NCBI GenBank assembly: GCA_026706485.1
Contig: JAPOYR010000003.1
Location: 62,001 to 126,000, forward strand
Source: Chloroflexota bacterium
GTDB taxonomy: Bacteria > Chloroflexota > UBA11872
DNA length: 64,000 bases
Direction: 5' to 3'
Shown here: positions 53,538 through 64,000 of the stretch, in pieces
Layout: each line of letters starts with the position of its first letter
How positions within the stretch are numbered: the stretch's first letter is position 1
Position numbers and translations under genes: made by a program
Notes under the pieces: generated by a model
Databases searched by the model: none
Told to the model about the DNA's origin: nothing
The model's input: only the letters and a program-made list of their open reading frames with translations

Positions 53538-53579
53538 TCGTGGCAAACCCTGAACCGCAGCTGGGTGGCTGGGGTCTGG

Positions 53580-53599
53580 ATTCCGGTTTTCGCCGGAAT
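53580..53599 (+). repeat. dRS3-like palindrome (CGG-arm copy)
   Basis: ATTCCG-GTTTTCGC-CGGAAT, with TGG before and GAC after, between udg and rnj in the same-direction gap. Confidence 0.75.
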
Positions 53600-53646
53600 G
53601 ACGGAATCGGCACCCTTCGCCGGGCGCCGCGAAGCTAGCGGGCGCG

Positions 53647-55317
53647 TTGCAGCAGGACTTGCGCCCCGACACCGTCCGCGTCGTGCCCATCGGCGGCGTG
53701 GGAGAGATCGGCAAGAACTGCACCGTCGTCGAGTTCGGCGACGACGCCGTCATCATCGACTGCGGGCTGACGTTTCCGGACGCCGAGCACCTGGGCGTGG
53801 ACCTGATCCTTCCCGACTTCGCCTATCTGCGCCAAATCCGACACAAGCTTCGCGCCGTGCTGCTGACCCATGGCCACGAGGACCACATCGGGGCGCTGCC
53901 CTTTGCGCTGCGGGACTTTCCGCTGCCGCTGTATGGCACGGCGCTCACCCTGGGCCTGGTGCAGGTGAAGCTGGACGAGGCGCGGCTGGTTGACGGCCAG
54001 GAGTTCCACGTGGTCGAAGCGGGCGACGTGGTCGAGATCGGGCCGTTTCGCTGCGAGTTCTTCCACATGTGCCACAGCATTCCCGACGCCACGGGCATTG
54101 CCGTGCATACGCCGATCGGCACGATCGTGCACACGGGCGATTTCAAGCTCGACTACACGCCGGTGGACGGACGCCCCCCGGACGTTCAGACCCTGGGCCG
54201 GCTGGGGCGCGACGGCGTGCTGCTGCTGATGGCCGACAGCACCTACGCGGATCGTCCCGGCTATACGCCGTCGGAGCAGGTGGTGGCGGAGACCTTCGAC
54301 CAGATCTTCGCCGAGGCGCCGGGGCGGATCATCGTGGCGACGTTTTCGTCGCTCGTCTCGCGCGCGCAGCAGGTGTTCGACGCGGCCATCGCCTACGGAC
54401 GCAAGGTGGCGCTGGTCGGACGGTCAATGGAGCGCGTGCACCGGGTGGCCGCCGACCTGGGATACGTGCGCGTGCCCGAGGGGCTGATCGTGGCCGCGGA
54501 GGACCTGGACGACTTCCGGGCCGAAGACATCGCCATCGTCTGCACCGGCTCGCAGGGCGAGCCGCGCTCGGCGCTGGTGCGCATGGCGAACCGGGACCAC
54601 CGGAACATCGACATCGCGCCCGACGACACGATCATCGTCTCGGCCGCCGCCATCCCCGGCAACGAGGCGAAGGTCAACCACACCATCGACCGGCTGGCGC
54701 ACCTCGGCGCCACCGTCTACTACGAGCAGCTGCGCCCGGTGCACGTCTCCGGCCACGCCAGCCAGGAGGAGCTCAAGCTGGTGCTCACGACGCTGCGGCC
54801 ACGCTTCTTCATGCCGGTGCACGGCGAATACCGGCACCTAGTGGAGCACCGGCGGCTGGCGGAGTCGGTGGGGGTGGGTCGGGACGACATCCTGATGGCC
54901 GAGAACGGCGCGGTGATCGAGGTGACGCGCGACCGCGCCGCGATCACCGACTACGTGGAGGCCGGCATGGTGTTCGTGGACGGCCTGGGCGTGGGCGACG
55001 TGGGCGAGACCGTGCTGCGCGACCGGCGGCACCTGGCCGAGGACGGCGTGGTGGTGGTCGTGGCGGCCGTGGACCACCACACCGGCAAGTCCGTGGGCAC
55101 GCCGGAGATCATCTCGCGCGGGTTCGTCTACGCGCCCGAGTCCGAAGACTTGCTGGAGCGGGCGCGGGAGCACGTGCGCCAGACGATCAATCGCGGCGAC
55201 CACCCGGATCCGGAAGTCGACTACCTGCAAGGCAAGATTCGCAGCTCACTCGGCCGACACCTCTACCAGAAAACCCGGCGGCGGCCGGTGATCCTGCCGA
55301 TCGTGACGGAGGTCTAG
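53647..55317 (+). CDS. rnj: Ribonuclease J
   Basis: A 556-residue metallo-beta-lactamase/beta-CASP RNase with endo- and 5'-3' exonuclease activity in mRNA decay. The metal site is LTHGHEDHIGALPFAL (near residue 75), and GDFKLDYTPVDGRP, STYADRPGYTPSEQ and HVSGHASQEELKLVLTTLRP are family blocks. The C-terminal dimerisation domain ends RRRPVILPIVTEV. It starts at TTG 53647 (MQQDLRPDTVRVVPIGG). A decayed copy of its C-terminus lies at 60613-60696. Confidence 0.94.
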   Translation: MQQDLRPDTVRVVPIGGVGEIGKNCTVVEFGDDAVIIDCGLTFPDAEHLGVDLILPDFAYLRQIRHKLRAVLLTHGHEDHIGALPFALRDFPLPLYGTALTLGLVQVKLDEARLVDGQEFHVVEAGDVVEIGPFRCEFFHMCHSIPDATGIAVHTPIGTIVHTGDFKLDYTPVDGRPPDVQTLGRLGRDGVLLLMADSTYADRPGYTPSEQVVAETFDQIFAEAPGRIIVATFSSLVSRAQQVFDAAIAYGRKVALVGRSMERVHRVAADLGYVRVPEGLIVAAEDLDDFRAEDIAIVCTGSQGEPRSALVRMANRDHRNIDIAPDDTIIVSAAAIPGNEAKVNHTIDRLAHLGATVYYEQLRPVHVSGHASQEELKLVLTTLRPRFFMPVHGEYRHLVEHRRLAESVGVGRDDILMAENGAVIEVTRDRAAITDYVEAGMVFVDGLGVGDVGETVLRDRRHLAEDGVVVVVAAVDHHTGKSVGTPEIISRGFVYAPESEDLLERAREHVRQTINRGDHPDPEVDYLQGKIRSSLGRHLYQKTRRRPVILPIVTEV

Positions 55318-55358
55318 CGCCGGGAATCGGCTCTGGGGCAGCCGGTCCGGAAGGGTCT

Positions 55359-57791
55359 CTACGGAATCCCTTGCGGCGGCGCCGGCTCGAAGTCGGGCAC
55401 AGCGAGGGGTTCGTGCAAGTACACCGCCGGGGCGCTAAAGGTGTTCTGCACCACCCGGCCGTCGGGGTAAATTTCGAGCCGCTGGACGCGATGGCCGTGC
55501 CCGAAGGTGATGGCAAGCTCGAGCTCCCGCCCATAGACGGTCTCGAACGCCGCGACCATGGCGGCCTCGGTGGGCCGGTAGACGTTGATCCAGTGGTCGT
55601 TGCCGGCCCGCACCACGAGCGGAAAGGACTCACCTTCGACGGCGAAAGCCAACGCGGTCTGCGCTCCGTCGGCAGGCGTCACCAGCCAGACGTCGCGGCC
55701 CACGGTGATCGTCTCGTCGGTCGCCTCGCCGTCGGCGTCGAGAAGGTGGAATTCGCCCGCGGGCCGCTCCGCATCCGCCGCCTGCGCGAAGCGCCGGGCC
55801 ATTTCCGTGCTCAGGTCATTGGCATTCCAGTACACGATCTGGACCGATTCGGGCAGCGCGGCCAGCACGGGATCAACCGCTCTATCGGTGGTCAGGCTCA
55901 CCACGAGGTCATAGCCGGCAAGCGCGTCCGCCGTGGCCTGATCGGGGGTCATGAAGTCGGCCTGGGGCACGTAGCGCCGCAGGTAGTGCCGCAGCAGCAG
56001 GCGCTGACTCTCGAACAGGTCGTTCGTGCCGGCCGGATACGCGTCGGCCGGATCCCCGAGGATGACCGCGCGCGGCAGATCGTCGGCTCGCGTCTCGGTC
56101 AGCTCGGCCAGCTGCGCCTGCGCCAGCTCGTAGCGCCGCCATTCATAGGTGTCGTCCGGGAAAAGGTGCGAGCCCTCCCAGAATTCGTTCCAGCTGTAGA
56201 TGAATATCAGGCCCGGGTTGCTGTGCGCGGCCAGCCAGGCGGTCTCCTGCAGATAGCGGTTGTCGTCGCGAATCACGCGCAGGGTCCCGTCGCGCTCGGC
56301 GACGCCGCGGTTGTCGAAGATGTAGTTCCAGGTCACCACGTGATGCCCGAATTGCCACTGGGGCACGTCCACCACGAAATTGAATGGCGCGTAGTCGTCC
56401 GGCCAGCGTTCGAACGCGAAGGCGTGGACCCTTGTCGAGGCCGACCAATCGAAGATCATGTCGACGTCCAAGGCCTTCTCGACGCGTCCGGCGATCTCGG
56501 CGAAGAACCAGGTCCACGCGTCCACGTCATCGAGCGCTTCGGGGAAGCCGTAGGCGTAAACGACCACGGGAAGCCGTCCGAACGCGTCGAATAGCCACAG
56601 GTCCGACGGTATTCCCTGGTAGAAGGCGATGACCTCGTCCGCGATCTTGCTGACGCTGGCCTCGTCGGCCGCGATATAGGCACGATCACTCAGAACTGCC
56701 CGCGCGCCGCTGAACAGCACCTCCCAGTCGTAGAACAGCCCGATCTTCAGGTCATGACGCCTGAGGGAATCGATCGCGACGGACGACGGTTCCAGGAGGT
56801 TGGCGCCCGTCAGATACCACTCCCAGACGATGCCATCGACGCCCAGATCGCGGATCAGCTCGAAGTTCACGTCGTAGTACGCCGCCGATCCCACCTCCTC
56901 CCGCGTCAATCCAACCCGCTCCCAGCTCAGCCCGTGGGTGAAGTACTCCGTCGGGAGGAAGCTCTGGTCCCACCAGTCGAAGAAGTGCACGGCGCTGACG
57001 GGGCGCGGCGGCTGGAGGTGCGGACGCTGGTCGGCGCGGTGGGGCACGGTGGCGTGGGCCGGGATCAGCTCCGCGGCCTGCAGCATCTCGAGCACGGAAA
57101 TCCGCCGCGGCGCGGCGTGCGCGGCGGGATCGTAGACCCACGCCCCCCGCTGGGTCCGCAACGCGTAGCCCGCGTGCGTTCGCGCCACCGCCATCGGCCA
57201 TCCGTACAGCGCGATGGCCGCGTCGTCACTCTCCAGGGTTTCCGCCGCCGTGTGGTAGGCCGCCCGCAGCGCCACGCGCCACGGTTCCGCCCCCTCCAGC
57301 AGCGCCAGATGCCGGTTCCGGACCTCGTCCCAGGTCAGTCCCTCGTCGGCCGACCAGTCGGCCGGCGCCGGGATCCCAAAGTCCTCCAGCAATTGGGCGT
57401 CATGCCCCCGCGCGGACAGGAAGTCCATCACATTAACGATCGATGCGCCCCGGGTGGGATCCGCGCGCAACAGGCCGCGCTCGAACACTTGCCGCACCCA
57501 GCCGTCGAGCAGGAAGCGGCGCGACACCGGCGCCCCGAGGGTGTCCTCCCCGCCGAGGTCCCGCCAGCCCGACCAGAGGCGCATGCCCCGGTCGTCGGTA
57601 ACGGAGAAGCCGAGAGCGGTCTCGTCCGCCGCGTCCGACGCGAAGAAGGCGCCGAATCCTCCTGGTACCGCCGTGCCCTGCGCCTGGGCGGCGCGTGGAA
57701 CGGCGACAAGCACGGCCAGGAGCACGACCAGGCACACGAAACGCGCGCCGGCGCGCCCGCCGCTCGGCAGGCGGGTCCTCGGAGCCGGCAT
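55359..57791 (-). CDS. Secreted GH99/WbsX-like protein, paralogue A
   Basis: An 810-residue exported protein. Signal segment: ARFVCLVVLLAVLVAVPRAA (about 14-33). The N-terminal module (ALGFSVTDDRGMRLWSGWRD, TLGAPVSRRFLLDGW, VRQVFERGLLRAD) precedes a helical region. A glycosidase-like barrel runs over about 285-590: VSAVHFFDWW, VDGIVWEWYLTG, LKIGLFYDWE and SWNEFWEGSHLFPDD. The last recalls the WNEWxEG...EPD of GH99-like proteins. A C-terminal flavodoxin-like region follows (VVSLTTDRAVDPVLAAL). ATG 57791 is preferred. It is nearly a duplicate of the next gene. Confidence 0.7.
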   Translation of the reverse strand: MPAPRTRLPSGGRAGARFVCLVVLLAVLVAVPRAAQAQGTAVPGGFGAFFASDAADETALGFSVTDDRGMRLWSGWRDLGGEDTLGAPVSRRFLLDGWVRQVFERGLLRADPTRGASIVNVMDFLSARGHDAQLLEDFGIPAPADWSADEGLTWDEVRNRHLALLEGAEPWRVALRAAYHTAAETLESDDAAIALYGWPMAVARTHAGYALRTQRGAWVYDPAAHAAPRRISVLEMLQAAELIPAHATVPHRADQRPHLQPPRPVSAVHFFDWWDQSFLPTEYFTHGLSWERVGLTREEVGSAAYYDVNFELIRDLGVDGIVWEWYLTGANLLEPSSVAIDSLRRHDLKIGLFYDWEVLFSGARAVLSDRAYIAADEASVSKIADEVIAFYQGIPSDLWLFDAFGRLPVVVYAYGFPEALDDVDAWTWFFAEIAGRVEKALDVDMIFDWSASTRVHAFAFERWPDDYAPFNFVVDVPQWQFGHHVVTWNYIFDNRGVAERDGTLRVIRDDNRYLQETAWLAAHSNPGLIFIYSWNEFWEGSHLFPDDTYEWRRYELAQAQLAELTETRADDLPRAVILGDPADAYPAGTNDLFESQRLLLRHYLRRYVPQADFMTPDQATADALAGYDLVVSLTTDRAVDPVLAALPESVQIVYWNANDLSTEMARRFAQAADAERPAGEFHLLDADGEATDETITVGRDVWLVTPADGAQTALAFAVEGESFPLVVRAGNDHWINVYRPTEAAMVAAFETVYGRELELAITFGHGHRVQRLEIYPDGRVVQNTFSAPAVYLHEPLAVPDFEPAPPQGIP

Positions 57792-57863
57792 TCGCCTAGG
57801 CAACGCTCGGCCGAGCGTTTCCCGGCGCGCCGCGTGTCGGCGCGGACGCTTCGCACGGCATCC

Positions 57864-60317
57864 TCACGCCGGAACCGCCACGTCGGCCGGGACGTCCCGC
57901 GGAGGAACCGGTTCGAAGTCCGGGATTGCGAGGGGTTCGTGCAGGAACACGGCCGGGGCGCTGAAGGTGTTCTGCACGACGCGGCCATCGGGATAGACCT
58001 CCAGCCGCTGGATGCGGTGACCGAGCGCGAAGGTGATGGCGAGCTCGAGCTCCCGCCCATAGACCGTCTCGAAAGCGGCGACCATGGCGGCCTCGGTGGG
58101 CCCGTAGACGTTGATCCAATGGTCGTTGTCCGCCCGCACCACGAGCGGATACGACTCACCCTCGAACTCGAATGCCAAGGCAACCTCAGCCCCGACCGCA
58201 GGCGTCGCCAGCCAGACGTCGCCACCCAGATTGATCGTCTCGTCGGTCGCCTGGCCGTCGTCATCGAGGAGCGGGAATTGGCCGTGGGGCCGGTCTTCCT
58301 CCGCCGACTGCGCGAAGCGTTGCGCCAGATCCGTGCTCAGGTCCGTGGCGTTCCAGTACACGATCTGGACCGATTCGGGAAGCTCGGCCAGCGCGGCATC
58401 AACCGCCCGATCGGTGGTCAGGCTCACGATTAAGTCATAGCCGGCCAATTCGTCCTCGGATACCTGCGCAGGCGTCATGAAGTCGGCCTGAGGCACGTAG
58501 CGCCGCAACAGGTGGCGCAGCAGCAGGCGCTGGCTCTCGAACAGGCCGTTGGTCCCCTGTGGGTAGGCATCCGCCGCGTCTCCAATGATGACGGCGCGCG
58601 GCAGATCGTCGGCCCGCGTCTCGGCCAGCTCTGCCAGCTGCGCCTGCGCCAGCTCGTAGCGCCGCCACTCGTAGGTATCGTCCGGGAAGAGGTGCGAGCC
58701 TTCCCAAAACTCGTTCCAGCTATAGATGAAGACCAGGCTTGGGTTCGTGTGCGCGGCCAGCCAGGCGGTCTCCTGGAGGTAGCGGTTGTCGTCGCGGATC
58801 ACGCGCAGCAGCCTGCCGCGCGCACCGCCGCGATTGTCGAAGATGTAGTTCCAGGTGACGACGTGATGCCCGAATTGCCACTGCGGCGCGTCGACCACGA
58901 AATTGAACGACGCGTAGTCGTCCGGCCAGCGTTCGAATGCCAAGGCCTGAACCCGCGACTCGGCCGTCCAATCGAAAATCACATCGACCTCCAGCGCGGT
59001 CTCGACCCTGCTCGCAAGCTCGGTGAAGAACCAGGTCCACGCGTCCACGTCGTCGAGCACTTCCGGAAAGCCGAAGGCGTAGACGATCACCGGGAGTCGC
59101 CCGTCCGCGTCGTAGAGCCACAGGTCCGGCGGAATGACCTGGTAGAAGGCGATCACCTCGTCCGCGATCTTGCTGACGCTGGCCTCGTCGGCCGCGATGT
59201 AGGCCTCTTCGCTGAGCACCGGCTGGCTGCCGGCATGCACAACCTCCCAGTCGTAGAACAGACCGATTTTCAAGTCGTGGCGTCGCAGGGAGTCGAGCAC
59301 GACGGGCTTCGGCGTCAGGCCCACGTTCTCGTACCACTCCCACATGACCCCGTCGACACCGAGGTCGCGGATCAGCCTGAAATTCACGTCGTAGTAGGCC
59401 GACGACCCGATCTCCTCGCGCGTGAGGCCAACCCGCTCCCAACTCAGCCCGTGGGTGAAGTAGTCCGTCGGCAGGTAGTCCGGTCTCCACCAGTCGAAGA
59501 AGTGCACCGCGCTGACCGGGCGCGGCGGCTGGAGGTGCGGCCGCTGATCGGCGCGATGCGGCACGGTGGCGTGGTCCGGGATCAGCTCCACGGCCCGCAG
59601 CATCTCGAGCACCGAAATCCGCCGAGGCGTGGCATCCGTGCCGGGGTCGTAGACCCACGCCGCCCGCTGGGTCCGCAGCGCGTAGCCCATCTCGGTCTGC
59701 GCCACCGCCAGCGGCAACCCGTACAGCGCAAGCGCGGCATCGTTGTTCGCCAGCGGCTCACGGGCCGTGCGAAATGCGGTCCGCAGCGCCACCCGCCACG
59801 GCTCCGGCCCATTCAGCAGCGCCAGGTGGCGCTCCCGAATGTCATCCCAGCTTTGCCCCTCGTCGGCCGACCAATCGGCCGACGCCGGGATGCCAAAGTC
59901 CTCCAGCAACTGGGCGTCGTGCCCGCGCGCGGACAGGAAGTCCAGCACGTTCACGATTGACGCGCCCCGCGCGTGATCCGCGCGCACGAGGCCCCGCTCG
60001 AACACCTGTCGCACCCAGCCGTCGAGCAGGAAGCGGCGCGAGACCGGCGCCCCAAGGGTGTGCTCCCCACCGAGGCCCTGCCACCCCGACCAGAGGCGCA
60101 TGCCCCGGTCGTCGGTGACCGAAAACCCGAGCGCGGACTCGTCTGCCGGGTCCGACGCGAAGAAGACGCCGGCGTTGATCGGGGTGGCCGGCCCGGCGGC
60201 GCCAGCTTCGGGCGCACCGACGCTCAACGCCGCCGCGAGCATCGCCGCGCCGGCCAGCCACCCGGCGGCGCGCCCGCGGCCCGCACCGCGACGGGTCCAG
60301 CAATGGATCCTGATCAC
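57864..60317 (-). CDS. Secreted GH99/WbsX-like protein, paralogue B
   Basis: An 817-residue paralogue sharing the whole domain order and most residues of paralogue A, including LGAPVSRRFLLDGWVRQVFE, SWNEFWEGSHLFPDD and the C-terminal AVFLHEPLAIPDFEPVP. GTG 60317 gives the same length as A and a signal segment AAGWLAGAAMLAAALSVGAP; the frame is open to 60491. Weakly supported start. Its stop lies 72 bp before paralogue A, so the two form an operon by tandem duplication. They interrupt the otherwise forward-running rnj-ftsK order. Confidence 0.7.
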   Translation of the reverse strand: MIRIHCWTRRGAGRGRAAGWLAGAAMLAAALSVGAPEAGAAGPATPINAGVFFASDPADESALGFSVTDDRGMRLWSGWQGLGGEHTLGAPVSRRFLLDGWVRQVFERGLVRADHARGASIVNVLDFLSARGHDAQLLEDFGIPASADWSADEGQSWDDIRERHLALLNGPEPWRVALRTAFRTAREPLANNDAALALYGLPLAVAQTEMGYALRTQRAAWVYDPGTDATPRRISVLEMLRAVELIPDHATVPHRADQRPHLQPPRPVSAVHFFDWWRPDYLPTDYFTHGLSWERVGLTREEIGSSAYYDVNFRLIRDLGVDGVMWEWYENVGLTPKPVVLDSLRRHDLKIGLFYDWEVVHAGSQPVLSEEAYIAADEASVSKIADEVIAFYQVIPPDLWLYDADGRLPVIVYAFGFPEVLDDVDAWTWFFTELASRVETALEVDVIFDWTAESRVQALAFERWPDDYASFNFVVDAPQWQFGHHVVTWNYIFDNRGGARGRLLRVIRDDNRYLQETAWLAAHTNPSLVFIYSWNEFWEGSHLFPDDTYEWRRYELAQAQLAELAETRADDLPRAVIIGDAADAYPQGTNGLFESQRLLLRHLLRRYVPQADFMTPAQVSEDELAGYDLIVSLTTDRAVDAALAELPESVQIVYWNATDLSTDLAQRFAQSAEEDRPHGQFPLLDDDGQATDETINLGGDVWLATPAVGAEVALAFEFEGESYPLVVRADNDHWINVYGPTEAAMVAAFETVYGRELELAITFALGHRIQRLEVYPDGRVVQNTFSAPAVFLHEPLAIPDFEPVPPRDVPADVAVPA

Positions 60318-60612
60318 CGGTCTGGGGCGCAAGGCGTCTACGATCGTCCTCGCGTTGATAGCGCTCCCCTGCTCTATTCGCAGATTGTTGGCCGAGCATA
60401 GGTACTTTTGACCCCTATGCACACAAATGAATGCTGTCACCCGGTCGCCGCGGGGAACGTGCCACGCAACAACGCCCCGGATCGCAAGCATCTTGGAATT
60501 GCCCCAGTCCCACTAGAAAATCCTCGGGCGGGCCAGATATCATCTGTGGAGGGTTGTCGACGCGCCGAAGCCGAGGCTTTTCCAGCCAGGGCGCGGAGCC
60601 GGCCCGCCAATT
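60318..60612. other. Gap upstream of paralogue B
   Basis: About 295 bp between the paralogue B start and the rnj remnant. It is less uniformly G/C-biased than coding regions and must hold paralogue B's promoter. I saw no convincing gene, repeat or RNA. Confidence 0.4.
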
Positions 60613-60696
60613 GAGATTCGGAACTCGCTCGGGAGGCACTAGTTCCACCAGACCCGGCGGCGGCCGGCGAGCGTGCCGATCGTCACTGAGGTCTAA
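60613..60696 (+). pseudogene. Decayed copy of the rnj 3' end
   Basis: Twenty-eight codons aligned without a gap to rnj 55234-55317: I count 64 of 84 bases identical. The translation EIRNSLGRH*FHQTRRRPAS then VPIVTEV* matches KIRSSLGRHLYQKTRRRPVI then LPIVTEV*. TAG at codon 10 breaks it. Many differences fall at third positions, so it may once have been a working gene. It is a relic of a second rnj or of a duplication linked to the insertion of the two glycosidase genes. Confidence 0.85.
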
Positions 60697-60735
60697 AGCC
60701 GGTGCGTGTCATGCCGCGCCGGCAAGGAGTGCCTC

Positions 60736-62910
60736 GTGGCCAAAACGCGCCGGGCAGCGACCCCAGCGCCGCAATCCCCCCGAATGGAACGCTGGGACCT
60801 GCTGGGGCTGGTCGGAATCGTTCTCAGCGCGCTTGGCCTGACCGCCTTCATCGGTCTCTTCAGCCGGGATGGGTTTGTCGTCGCGGCGAGCGGCGCCGCC
60901 TACATCGAGGTCTTCGGCCGCGCGGCGTCGATCGCCGCGATCGCATGCATCCTGGTTGGACCCGCGCTGCTGCTGAGCGGCGTGCGGAGGCGATCGATCG
61001 TCGGGCCGGGGCACGTGGCCGCGGCGGTGGCGTTCGTGCTGGGGCTGGCCGCCCTGGTCGGTCTGGCGGCCCCGGAAGACGCGCTGGCGGCTGACAGCGG
61101 CGGCTGGATTGGCCGGTTTATCGGCCACGGGCTCGCGGCGAGCGTGGGCGGGGCGCCGGCCTACGCGCTGCTGGCCCTTGCGACCGTGGCGGCGGTCGGC
61201 TACGCCCTGCTGGCCTCGGCGCGCGGCGCGGCGACGACGCGGCTAACGGGGCGGTTGCTCATCGACGGGGCCGTGTACCTGGCACGAATCGTTGCCGCGA
61301 CGGCATCCGCCGCCAAACGCCGCCTTGGTCCGATCTTCCGGCCGCAATCCGCGGATAAGTCGCGCCGGGCGTCGGAAGCGCCGGAACCGGCGGTCGACTC
61401 GCCCGAAGTGGTCAACGGCTCGTCGAAACCCGAAGATTGGGAGCAGGGCCCGCTGATCCGCACCGCGCCGACCGTGGCGACGGCCCCGGCCACCGAGGAC
61501 GACGACGAGGGCCCGTGGACGCTGCCGTCGATGGACCTGATGCAACCGACGCCGCCGGCGACCGACGTGCCCGACGCCGAGATCCGGTCGAAGGCCCAGG
61601 TGATCGTGGATACGTTGGCCTCCTTCAACATCGAGGCCAGCGTGCCGGAGGCGATTCCGGGTCCGGTGGTGACCCAATACCTGGTGCGGCCGGGCACGGG
61701 CGTCAAGGTGGCGCGCATCACCGCGCTGGCCAACGACCTGGCGCTGAAACTGGCCGCGCGCAGCCTGCGCATTGAGGCGCCGGTGCCGGGGCGGCCCTAT
61801 CTGGGCATCGAGCTGCCGAACGACGAGCCGTTGGTCGTCAGCGTGCGCGAGGTCATGGAGTCCGAGGCGTGGGTGGGGTCGCGCTCCAACCTCAAGCTGG
61901 CGCTGGGCAAGGACGTGGCCGGCATGGTGCAGGTAGTCGACCTGACGGCGATGCCGCACCTGCTGATTGCAGGGTCCACCGGCGCCGGGAAGTCCGTGTG
62001 CCTCACGTCGCTGATCACGGGCTTGCTGTGCCAGACCACGCCGGACGAGCTGCACCTGGTGCTGATCGACCCCAAGATGGTCGAGCTCGTGACCTTCGAC
62101 GGCGTGCCCCATCTGCGCATGCCCGTCGTGACGGACATCGACGACGCGGTGCCGGTGCTCACGTGGGTCAGCCGCGAGATGGCCCGGCGCTACCGCGTCT
62201 TCAACAAGGCCGGCGTGCGAAACATCAAGGGATATAACGCAAATCCGACCGAGGCCACCGACGGCAAGCCGCTGCCCTACCTCGTCACGGTCATCGACGA
62301 GCTGGCGGACCTGATGATGACCGCGCCGGGCGACGTCGAGCGCCTGTTGGCGCGACTGGCGCAGCTGGCGCGCGCCACGGGCATCCACCTGGTGGTCTCG
62401 ACGCAGCGGCCGTCGGTGGACGTGGTGACGGGCTTGATCAAGGCCAATTTCCCAACGCGCATCTCGTTCATGGTCAGCAGCCAGGCCGACTCGCGCACGA
62501 TCCTGGACGGGGCCGGCGCGGAGCGGTTGATCGGCCGCGGCGACATGCTGTTCGCGCCACCCGAAGGCGGCAAGCCGATCCGCGTGCAGGGGGTCTATAC
62601 CGACGACGCGGAGATTAATGCGGTGGTCGACCACTGGCGCGAGCAGGGCGAGCCGCAGACGCTGACGACCGAGGACCTGCGGGACGCCATCGAAGAGGGC
62701 GACTCGGAGGAAGACGAGCTGTACGTGTCCGCAACGGAACTCGTGATGCGGCACGAGAGCATCACGCCCGACCTGCTCAGCCGTGAGCTGCGGATCGGAC
62801 GGTCCAAGGCGCAGAAGCTGGCCATGCAGCTGGAGGCCGAGGGCTTCGTGGGGCCGCCGGAACCGCAATCGGCGCGGCGCCAGGTGCTGCAGCGCAGCGA
62901 GACGGTCTAG
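60736..62910 (+). CDS. ftsK: DNA translocase FtsK/SpoIIIE
   Basis: A 724-residue DNA pump that moves chromosomes through the septum. Four hydrophobic segments lie in the first 170 residues, then a linker, then the alpha/beta motor with Walker A GSTGAGKS near 413, LVLIDPKMVELVTFDGVPHL and TVIDELADLMM (Walker B). The gamma winged helix (YVSATELVMRHESITPDLLS, KAQKLAMQLEAEGFVGPP) recognises polar sequences. GTG 60736 is chosen because AAGGAG precedes it; GTG 60706 is the upstream option. The usual four-TM form of FtsK. It follows the rnj remnant by 39 bp. Confidence 0.93.
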   Translation: MAKTRRAATPAPQSPRMERWDLLGLVGIVLSALGLTAFIGLFSRDGFVVAASGAAYIEVFGRAASIAAIACILVGPALLLSGVRRRSIVGPGHVAAAVAFVLGLAALVGLAAPEDALAADSGGWIGRFIGHGLAASVGGAPAYALLALATVAAVGYALLASARGAATTRLTGRLLIDGAVYLARIVAATASAAKRRLGPIFRPQSADKSRRASEAPEPAVDSPEVVNGSSKPEDWEQGPLIRTAPTVATAPATEDDDEGPWTLPSMDLMQPTPPATDVPDAEIRSKAQVIVDTLASFNIEASVPEAIPGPVVTQYLVRPGTGVKVARITALANDLALKLAARSLRIEAPVPGRPYLGIELPNDEPLVVSVREVMESEAWVGSRSNLKLALGKDVAGMVQVVDLTAMPHLLIAGSTGAGKSVCLTSLITGLLCQTTPDELHLVLIDPKMVELVTFDGVPHLRMPVVTDIDDAVPVLTWVSREMARRYRVFNKAGVRNIKGYNANPTEATDGKPLPYLVTVIDELADLMMTAPGDVERLLARLAQLARATGIHLVVSTQRPSVDVVTGLIKANFPTRISFMVSSQADSRTILDGAGAERLIGRGDMLFAPPEGGKPIRVQGVYTDDAEINAVVDHWREQGEPQTLTTEDLRDAIEEGDSEEDELYVSATELVMRHESITPDLLSRELRIGRSKAQKLAMQLEAEGFVGPPEPQSARRQVLQRSETV

Positions 62911-63141
62911 CGCCCGCAGAGGCGTTTCGCCAACTGCCCATTCCAGGCACAGTGCACGCCTTCGGGTCCGAGCGGCCTGGATTCCGGCTTCCGCCGGAAT
63001 GACGGAGAAGCTGCGCAGAGGTTCCAGCCAGGAAATAAGGACCCGGCGCATTGACGCTGACGCCCGGCCCGGCTATAAGCGACGAAAGCGCCGGGCGCGG
63101 GCGACATACAGCGGCGCCGCAAGCGGGTGGAGGCTCTGCCG
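62911..63141. other. Gap after ftsK with one palindrome
   Basis: 231 bp; the only feature is the dRS3-like repeat at 62981-63000. A GGAGG lies before the next gene's ATG. Confidence 0.4.
62981..63000 (+). repeat. dRS3-like palindrome (CGG-arm copy)
   Basis: ATTCCG-GCTTCCGC-CGGAAT, with TGG before and GAC after, in the gap following ftsK. Confidence 0.75.
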
Positions 63142-64000
63142 ATGACGCGTGACGAACTTCGGGAACTGATCCAGGGGCCGATTGCGACGGTCCCCACGCC
63201 GTTCGACGATGACTTCGAGGTCGATCACGGCTGCATGCACGCGATCACCCAGTGGTGGGTGGAGCAGGGCCTTGTGAAGGGCGCTGCCGTGATCAAGGTG
63301 GCGGCGGCCATGGGCGAAGGCCCGATGCTGAGCGATGAGGAGTGGCCCGCGCTCTTGCGCACCGTGGTGCAGGCGGCCGATGACCGCGCGGCGATCGTGT
63401 GCGGGCTCCACTACAAGGACACCAAGCGCACGATCGAGGACGCGAAGCGCGCGCAGGACCTGGGGGCCATGGCGCTCCAAGTGTGTCCGCCGGTCTTCAA
63501 TCTGCCGAGCCAGGGCGACGCGATCGACTACTTCAGCGACCTGTCGGACGCCATCGACATCGGCATCATGGTCTATCACACCCACTGGCTGCCCGGCGGT
63601 CGGATGGAAGTGGACACGCTGGACACCATCGCGGACATCGACCAGGTGGTGAGCATCAAGTGGGCGGCCCCGGCGGATGTCGACTACGACGAGATGGCCC
63701 GCTTCACGGACCGGGTGAGCGTGATCGACAACGGCGGCGGGCCGATCCGCTGTCACCAGCTCGGCGGGCGGGGCTATATCAACCTCACGTCGGATATTCA
63801 CCCGGCGCACGACCTGCGCGTGTGGGAGCTCATGGAAGCGAAGCAGTACGACGAGGCGGAGACGCTGTTCGAGTCTGTGAACGAGCCGCTGCGCCTGTTC
63901 GCCGAGCGCATGGACCAGCGGTCGGGCGGGCAGGGACGGGTGAAGAAGGGGTTGACCGCGGTGATGGGCCGCCCGATGGGGGCCTCGCGGCCGCCGTCCA
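63142..64000 (+). CDS. DapA-family aldolase, C-terminus cut by window edge
   Basis: About 286 codons are visible. The opening MTRDELRELIQGPIATVPTP then FDDDFEVD follows the DHDPS/NAL start, and the Schiff-base lysine appears in VVSIKWAAPADVDYDEM. The DapA-type TTGE loop is replaced by AAMGEGPMLSDEEW, and the proton-relay region reads YHTHWLPGG, so this is not a second lysine-pathway DapA. It is probably a related aldolase for a sugar acid; the substrate is unknown. ATG 63142 is preceded by GGAGG. The family is about 300 residues, so little is missing. Confidence 0.8.
   Translation, partial: MTRDELRELIQGPIATVPTPFDDDFEVDHGCMHAITQWWVEQGLVKGAAVIKVAAAMGEGPMLSDEEWPALLRTVVQAADDRAAIVCGLHYKDTKRTIEDAKRAQDLGAMALQVCPPVFNLPSQGDAIDYFSDLSDAIDIGIMVYHTHWLPGGRMEVDTLDTIADIDQVVSIKWAAPADVDYDEMARFTDRVSVIDNGGGPIRCHQLGGRGYINLTSDIHPAHDLRVWELMEAKQYDEAETLFESVNEPLRLFAERMDQRSGGQGRVKKGLTAVMGRPMGASRPPS

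Follow-up and report, generated by a model that had tools for sequence, protein, structure and literature searches.

Promoters of the sigma70 type can lie inside genes: in bacterial operons the promoter of a downstream gene may be embedded in the coding sequence of its upstream neighbour. Following a partial gene duplication, two copies can also undergo subfunctionalisation, each losing functions that complement those lost by the other. Integrating islands duplicate gene ends, as e14 does at icd, and leave the 3' end of a gene repeated beyond the added genes. Finally, the structured 5' leaders collected in Rfam (cis-regulatory RNAs) carry conserved hairpins between promoter and Shine-Dalgarno sequence.

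Here we describe an rnj-ftsK locus from a Chloroflexota genome, within a stretch of 64,000 nucleotides (the window), that resembles each of these systems. It departs from other internal promoters in that the overlap appears to have been resolved later, by duplication of the end of the host gene. The proposed split separates protein code from the promoter and leader of a neighbouring gene, unlike a subfunctionalisation between two protein or expression functions. In contrast to an island, there is no integrase among the listed reading frames, and the genes of the intervening block are local neighbours in relatives. Unlike the known structured leaders, the putative leader of ftsK matches no Rfam family. 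A literature search for rnj-ftsK leaders or a resolved promoter overlap returned nothing relevant; each ingredient is known, and we have not found so clean a reciprocal split (protein code versus neighbour regulation) described for this locus.

Results

The end of rnj is repeated directly before ftsK

The initial annotation reported that the last 28 codons of rnj (55234-55317) recur at 60613-60696. The two segments align gap-free, with 64 of 84 bases identical and their stop codons aligned. When the rnj end is aligned to 60400-60740, the local score is 79, compared with a maximum of 35 among 2000 dinucleotide shuffles. A 144-base rnj end used as a query against its own genome matches only itself and the remnant (E 1.6e-12). 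The shuffle scores and the own-genome search thus rule out chance similarity, and the partial copy can be considered real. A pattern search allowing 0-2 mismatches found no further copies of the element in this genome. The features of the locus are collected in Table 1.

Table 1 Features of the rnj-ftsK locus, with positions counted in the window.
Feature	Position	Strand	Evidence or remark
Intact rnj (RNase J)	53647-55317	+	Pfam RNase_J_b_CASP and RNase_J_C; only one match in this genome
rnj codons 478-556, counterpart of the duplicated segment	55078-55317	+	Promoter and GGGAGGC lost
WbsX/GH99-like gene A	55359-57803	-	ORF; shares 81% identity with copy B; nothing in Pfam at 1e-3
WbsX/GH99-like gene B, mechanically called ORF	57864-60491	-	ORF; homologue of copy A; sub-threshold match to PF14307 (E 0.0095); true start probably around 60300
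Remnant block A, from rnj codons ~478-497	60510-60571	+	tblastn of rnj on congeners; sequences
Sigma70-like promoter candidate of ftsK	60514-60543	+	TAGAAA (60514-60519), 18 nt, TATCAT (60538-60543)
Remnant block B, last 28 rnj codons	60613-60696	+	Ungapped alignment; first 47 nt nearly invariant
Inverted repeat P0, GGAACT...AGTTCC	60620-60646	+	Surrounds GGGAGGC (60631-60637)
Predicted hairpin P2 of the ftsK leader	60651-60693	+	16/16 pairs in 19 promoter/leader-bearing copies
Predicted hairpin P3	60698-60723	+	Between former rnj stop and Shine-Dalgarno sequence
GTGCCTC, could pair with GAGGCAC 60633-60639 (P1)	60729-60735	+	Predicted folds; adjoins ftsK start codon
ftsK	60736-62910	+	Pfam FtsK_alpha, FtsK_SpoIIIE and FtsK_gamma; start likely GTG at 60736 (Shine-Dalgarno AAGGAG 60724-60729), not the mechanical 60706

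The copy reaches further upstream than 28 codons. A tblastn search of RNase J on the DNA before ftsK recovers approximately rnj codons 478-556, and in one congener (G003) all 79 codons are uninterrupted (E 5e-18). In the window and the other congeners the remnant has an internal deletion or lies in separate pieces. The deletion in the window breaks the reading frame, with 77 nt between blocks compared with 129 in rnj, and an in-frame TAG interrupts block B at 60640-60642. Before ftsK, none of the six genomes of this genus showed rnj homology upstream of codon ~472.

Gene order was compared across 41 searchable genomes of the class, of which six (the window's included) belong to the same genus and 13 to its sister genus. 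Every relative with a match carries one rnj. In all 13 sister-genus genomes, as well as in G020 and G022 of family f2, this single rnj ends 36-73 nt before ftsK with no insert. Within the window's genus the remnant directly precedes ftsK in six of six genomes (85-96% identity in the other five), and one to three minus-strand WbsX/GH99-like genes lie between it and rnj (in G002 across a contig break). Since rnj abuts ftsK in the sister genus and in G020/G022, direct adjacency is most likely the ancestral order. The expectation of a neighbouring rnj before ftsK is thereby borne out, and the relatives that had been suggested as a check, with one rnj and no glycosidase block, exist. The suggestion that a second rnj beside ftsK was lost is not supported, given one rnj in each matching relative and no homology upstream of codon ~472.

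The WbsX/GH99-like genes (55359-60491) have no PDB sequence match, and their only Pfam hit is the sub-threshold PF14307 (E 0.0095). A short, near-identical dispersed sequence of the CTGGATTCCGG...CGCCGGAATGACGG type occupies two intergenic gaps, at 53571-53607 and 62976-63006. Directly downstream of ftsK, two DHDPS-family genes stand in tandem in the genus (63127-63999 and L063 2827-4678); in the sister genus, no DHDPS-family match appeared immediately behind ftsK.

The remnant is conserved and the tail of intact rnj is variable

Although the reading frame is broken, the remnant does not evolve without constraint. When the six species are aligned, just one of the leading 47 columns of block B varies (binomial P 6e-10 to 9e-14), the TAG being unchanged, and 41% (rnj) and 51% (ftsK) of 4-fold sites vary nearby. 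The description of this copy as decayed consequently does not hold. Block B as a translated short ORF was rejected, as no start codon is conserved and the frame ends differently between species.

The intact genes display a reciprocal pattern. In the sister genus, synonymous divergence over the last 28 rnj codons is 0.148 against a mean of 0.319, the lowest of 532 windows, and the zone of low divergence covers the last ~84 codons, the stretch that the remnant also spans. For intact rnj of the window's genus, the last 28 codons have a value of 0.267 against a mean of 0.168 (rank 514 of 532). Comparison of the two genera hence indicates that the rnj tail carries a nucleotide-level function belonging to ftsK. 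In the sister genus and in G020/G022 the AGG codon in CTNGGGAGG is fixed; all six intact rnj genes of the window's genus have free CGN codons. Furthermore, most sister-genus rnj ends resemble the remnant more (79-84%) than the intact rnj of its own genome does (78%), as expected if ancestral regulatory bases were kept.

The 20 differences between the two copies fall 5/5/10 on first, second and third codon positions. The third-position bias cited in favour of an old functional duplicate is therefore present (10 of 20) but weak, and purifying selection acting on the coding copy, together with regulatory selection on the other, accounts for it better.

A putative promoter is retained before ftsK

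Within 60400-60760, the TAGAAA-18-TATCAT element of block A is the sole promoter-like site (shuffle mean 0.0); it matches the consensus at 9 of 12 positions. It is kept in all six remnants, with a spacer of 16 in one, and so displays the -35 and -10 hexamers, the 16-18 nt spacing and the conserved position of a sigma70 promoter. In 13 of 13 sister-genus genomes, the final 300 nt of rnj likewise contain a single sigma70-like site, TGGxxA-18-TATCAT. The site and GGGAGGC are both absent from intact rnj of the window's genus (0/6). Searches of ~24 kb of rnj body (18 genomes) and of the rnj ends of family f2 yielded no comparable site. No intrinsic terminator was found.

In family f4, from another order of the same class, a stronger promoter-like site (TTGAAA-17-TATAAT) occurs inside the rnj coding sequence upstream of ftsK, 164 nt before the rnj stop, in 5/5 genomes (L168, L170, L172, L174, L176); synonymous divergence is low around its -35. 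Because of this stronger site, ftsK promoters embedded in rnj may be widespread in the class.

The ftsK leader is predicted to fold

Leaders from three lineages are predicted to fold similarly: the old rnj end forms P2, P3 precedes the Shine-Dalgarno sequence, and GGGAGGC of the rnj tail pairs with bases beside the ftsK start codon to close the structure as helix P1. All 16 P2 pairs are present in the six remnants and the 13 sister-genus sequences, compared with 12-14 in the six intact rnj genes, P2 having been derived from the very sequences on which its pairs were counted. P0 shows the same trend, with 6-7 of 7 pairs in the 19 promoter/leader-bearing copies versus 2-5 in the six intact rnj. 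Covariation of P0 and P2 in 17 sequences exceeds all or nearly all of 500 shuffles, which do not remove relatedness; on the alignment of the six remnants alone it is not significant. In the non-coding copy, four of six apical-loop positions of P2 vary while its pairs are kept. In G020/G022, P2 and P0 are not kept in the same register. A hairpin in the putative ftsK leader is supported by the pair counts of P2.

Within the genus P1 does not vary, and in most genomes its duplex energy fails to exceed that of shuffles, the DNA being GC-rich; pairing at the ftsK start codon accordingly stands as a possibility suggested by the fold models. GGAGGC of the rnj tail is kept in G019 and G021 (L164, L165), two fast-evolving genomes of family f2, with no matching GCCTCC at the ftsK start.

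Discussion

We consider it very probable that ftsK uses the remnant as its promoter and 5' leader, a predicted function, and that a duplication set the remnant apart from rnj. The duplication, the ancestral order, the reciprocal loss, the constraint and the hairpin conservation can each be read from the sequences compared here. The ancestral state would have been as in the sister genus, with the ftsK promoter and leader contained in the last ~80 rnj codons and overlapping the protein code. In the ancestor of the genus the rnj 3' end would have been duplicated while WbsX-like genes came between rnj and ftsK. On the rnj side, the copy would then have gone on coding for protein without the promoter and leader motifs; on the ftsK side, the promoter and leader would have stayed and the reading frame been given up. 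The minus-strand genes presumably cut ftsK off from read-through of the rnj operon, and for this reason the remnant would have to supply the promoter. Transcription would start ~7 nt after TATCAT, near 60550, yielding a leader of ~190 nt that may tune ftsK translation.

How the duplication arose is suggested by the neighbourhood. In the sister genus the WbsX-like gene is single-copy; where the loci show it, it sits ~2.3 kb past ftsK and has the orientation seen in the window. The DNA upstream of it is partly alike between the two genera (E 5e-6), and a gene tree places the origin of copies A and B in a later duplication within the genus. A tandem duplication spanning the rnj end, ftsK and the WbsX-like gene, after which the first ftsK and the second WbsX-like gene disappeared, is a possible route at somewhat less than even odds, with the rnj end as its scar; local transposition is an alternative. 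The initial annotation had offered insertion of the glycosidase block as the cause of the duplicated end. That the rnj end was duplicated fits, and the reason for its retention, a promoter and leader, was not foreseen.

Were the remnant a neutrally decaying pseudogene fragment of a lost second rnj, its stop codon, its frame-breaking deletion and the half of the differences found at third positions would be natural. The almost complete conservation of 47 nt in six species, the promoter site kept in all six, the single rnj of every matching relative with no homology beyond codon ~472, the synonymous-divergence pattern and the P2/P0 pair counts make that origin very improbable. A mobile element integrating at the rnj 3' end, with the remnant as a displaced attachment site, would likewise explain a gene-end duplication flanking a block of added genes whose copy number varies from one to three. 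We nevertheless regard it as unlikely: the listed open reading frames of the block are only the two WbsX-like genes, a gene of this kind lies in the same orientation ~2.3 kb beyond ftsK in the sister genus, and the repeat spans at least 79 codons and is conserved as promoter and leader.

More difficult to set aside is an element acting as DNA only, either as a promoter with a protein-binding site or as an extracytoplasmic-sigma promoter (GGAAC-N17-GTT), with no functional RNA structure. GGAAC...GTTCC occurs in most sequences, a strong sigma70-like site lies upstream, and P1 is not significant. However, G006, G016 and f2 have not kept GGAAC/GTT but do retain GGGAGGC, and P2 retains its pairs despite its variable apical loop, so that we hold the DNA-only reading to be possible but the less likely one. 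Our preferred reading, a promoter with a transcribed leader, could extend to an undescribed regulatory RNA, which we put forward tentatively. In this RNA, GGGAGGC would pair beside the ftsK start and control ftsK translation. Should P1 form, the bases that separate the Shine-Dalgarno sequence from the start codon would be masked and ftsK translated less. Where the element overlaps rnj, as in the sister genus, ribosomes finishing rnj could melt P1, and here it would act as a stand-alone leader.

The locus cautions that stop codons in a gene fragment do not preclude its being an active promoter, and it points to an intragenic ftsK promoter and leader not described in Rfam. It may furthermore be regarded as a natural experiment in separating overlapping information, with bases that do double duty in one genus and a single duty per copy in the next. 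Comparing the two copies would thus show which rnj bases serve the protein and which serve ftsK.
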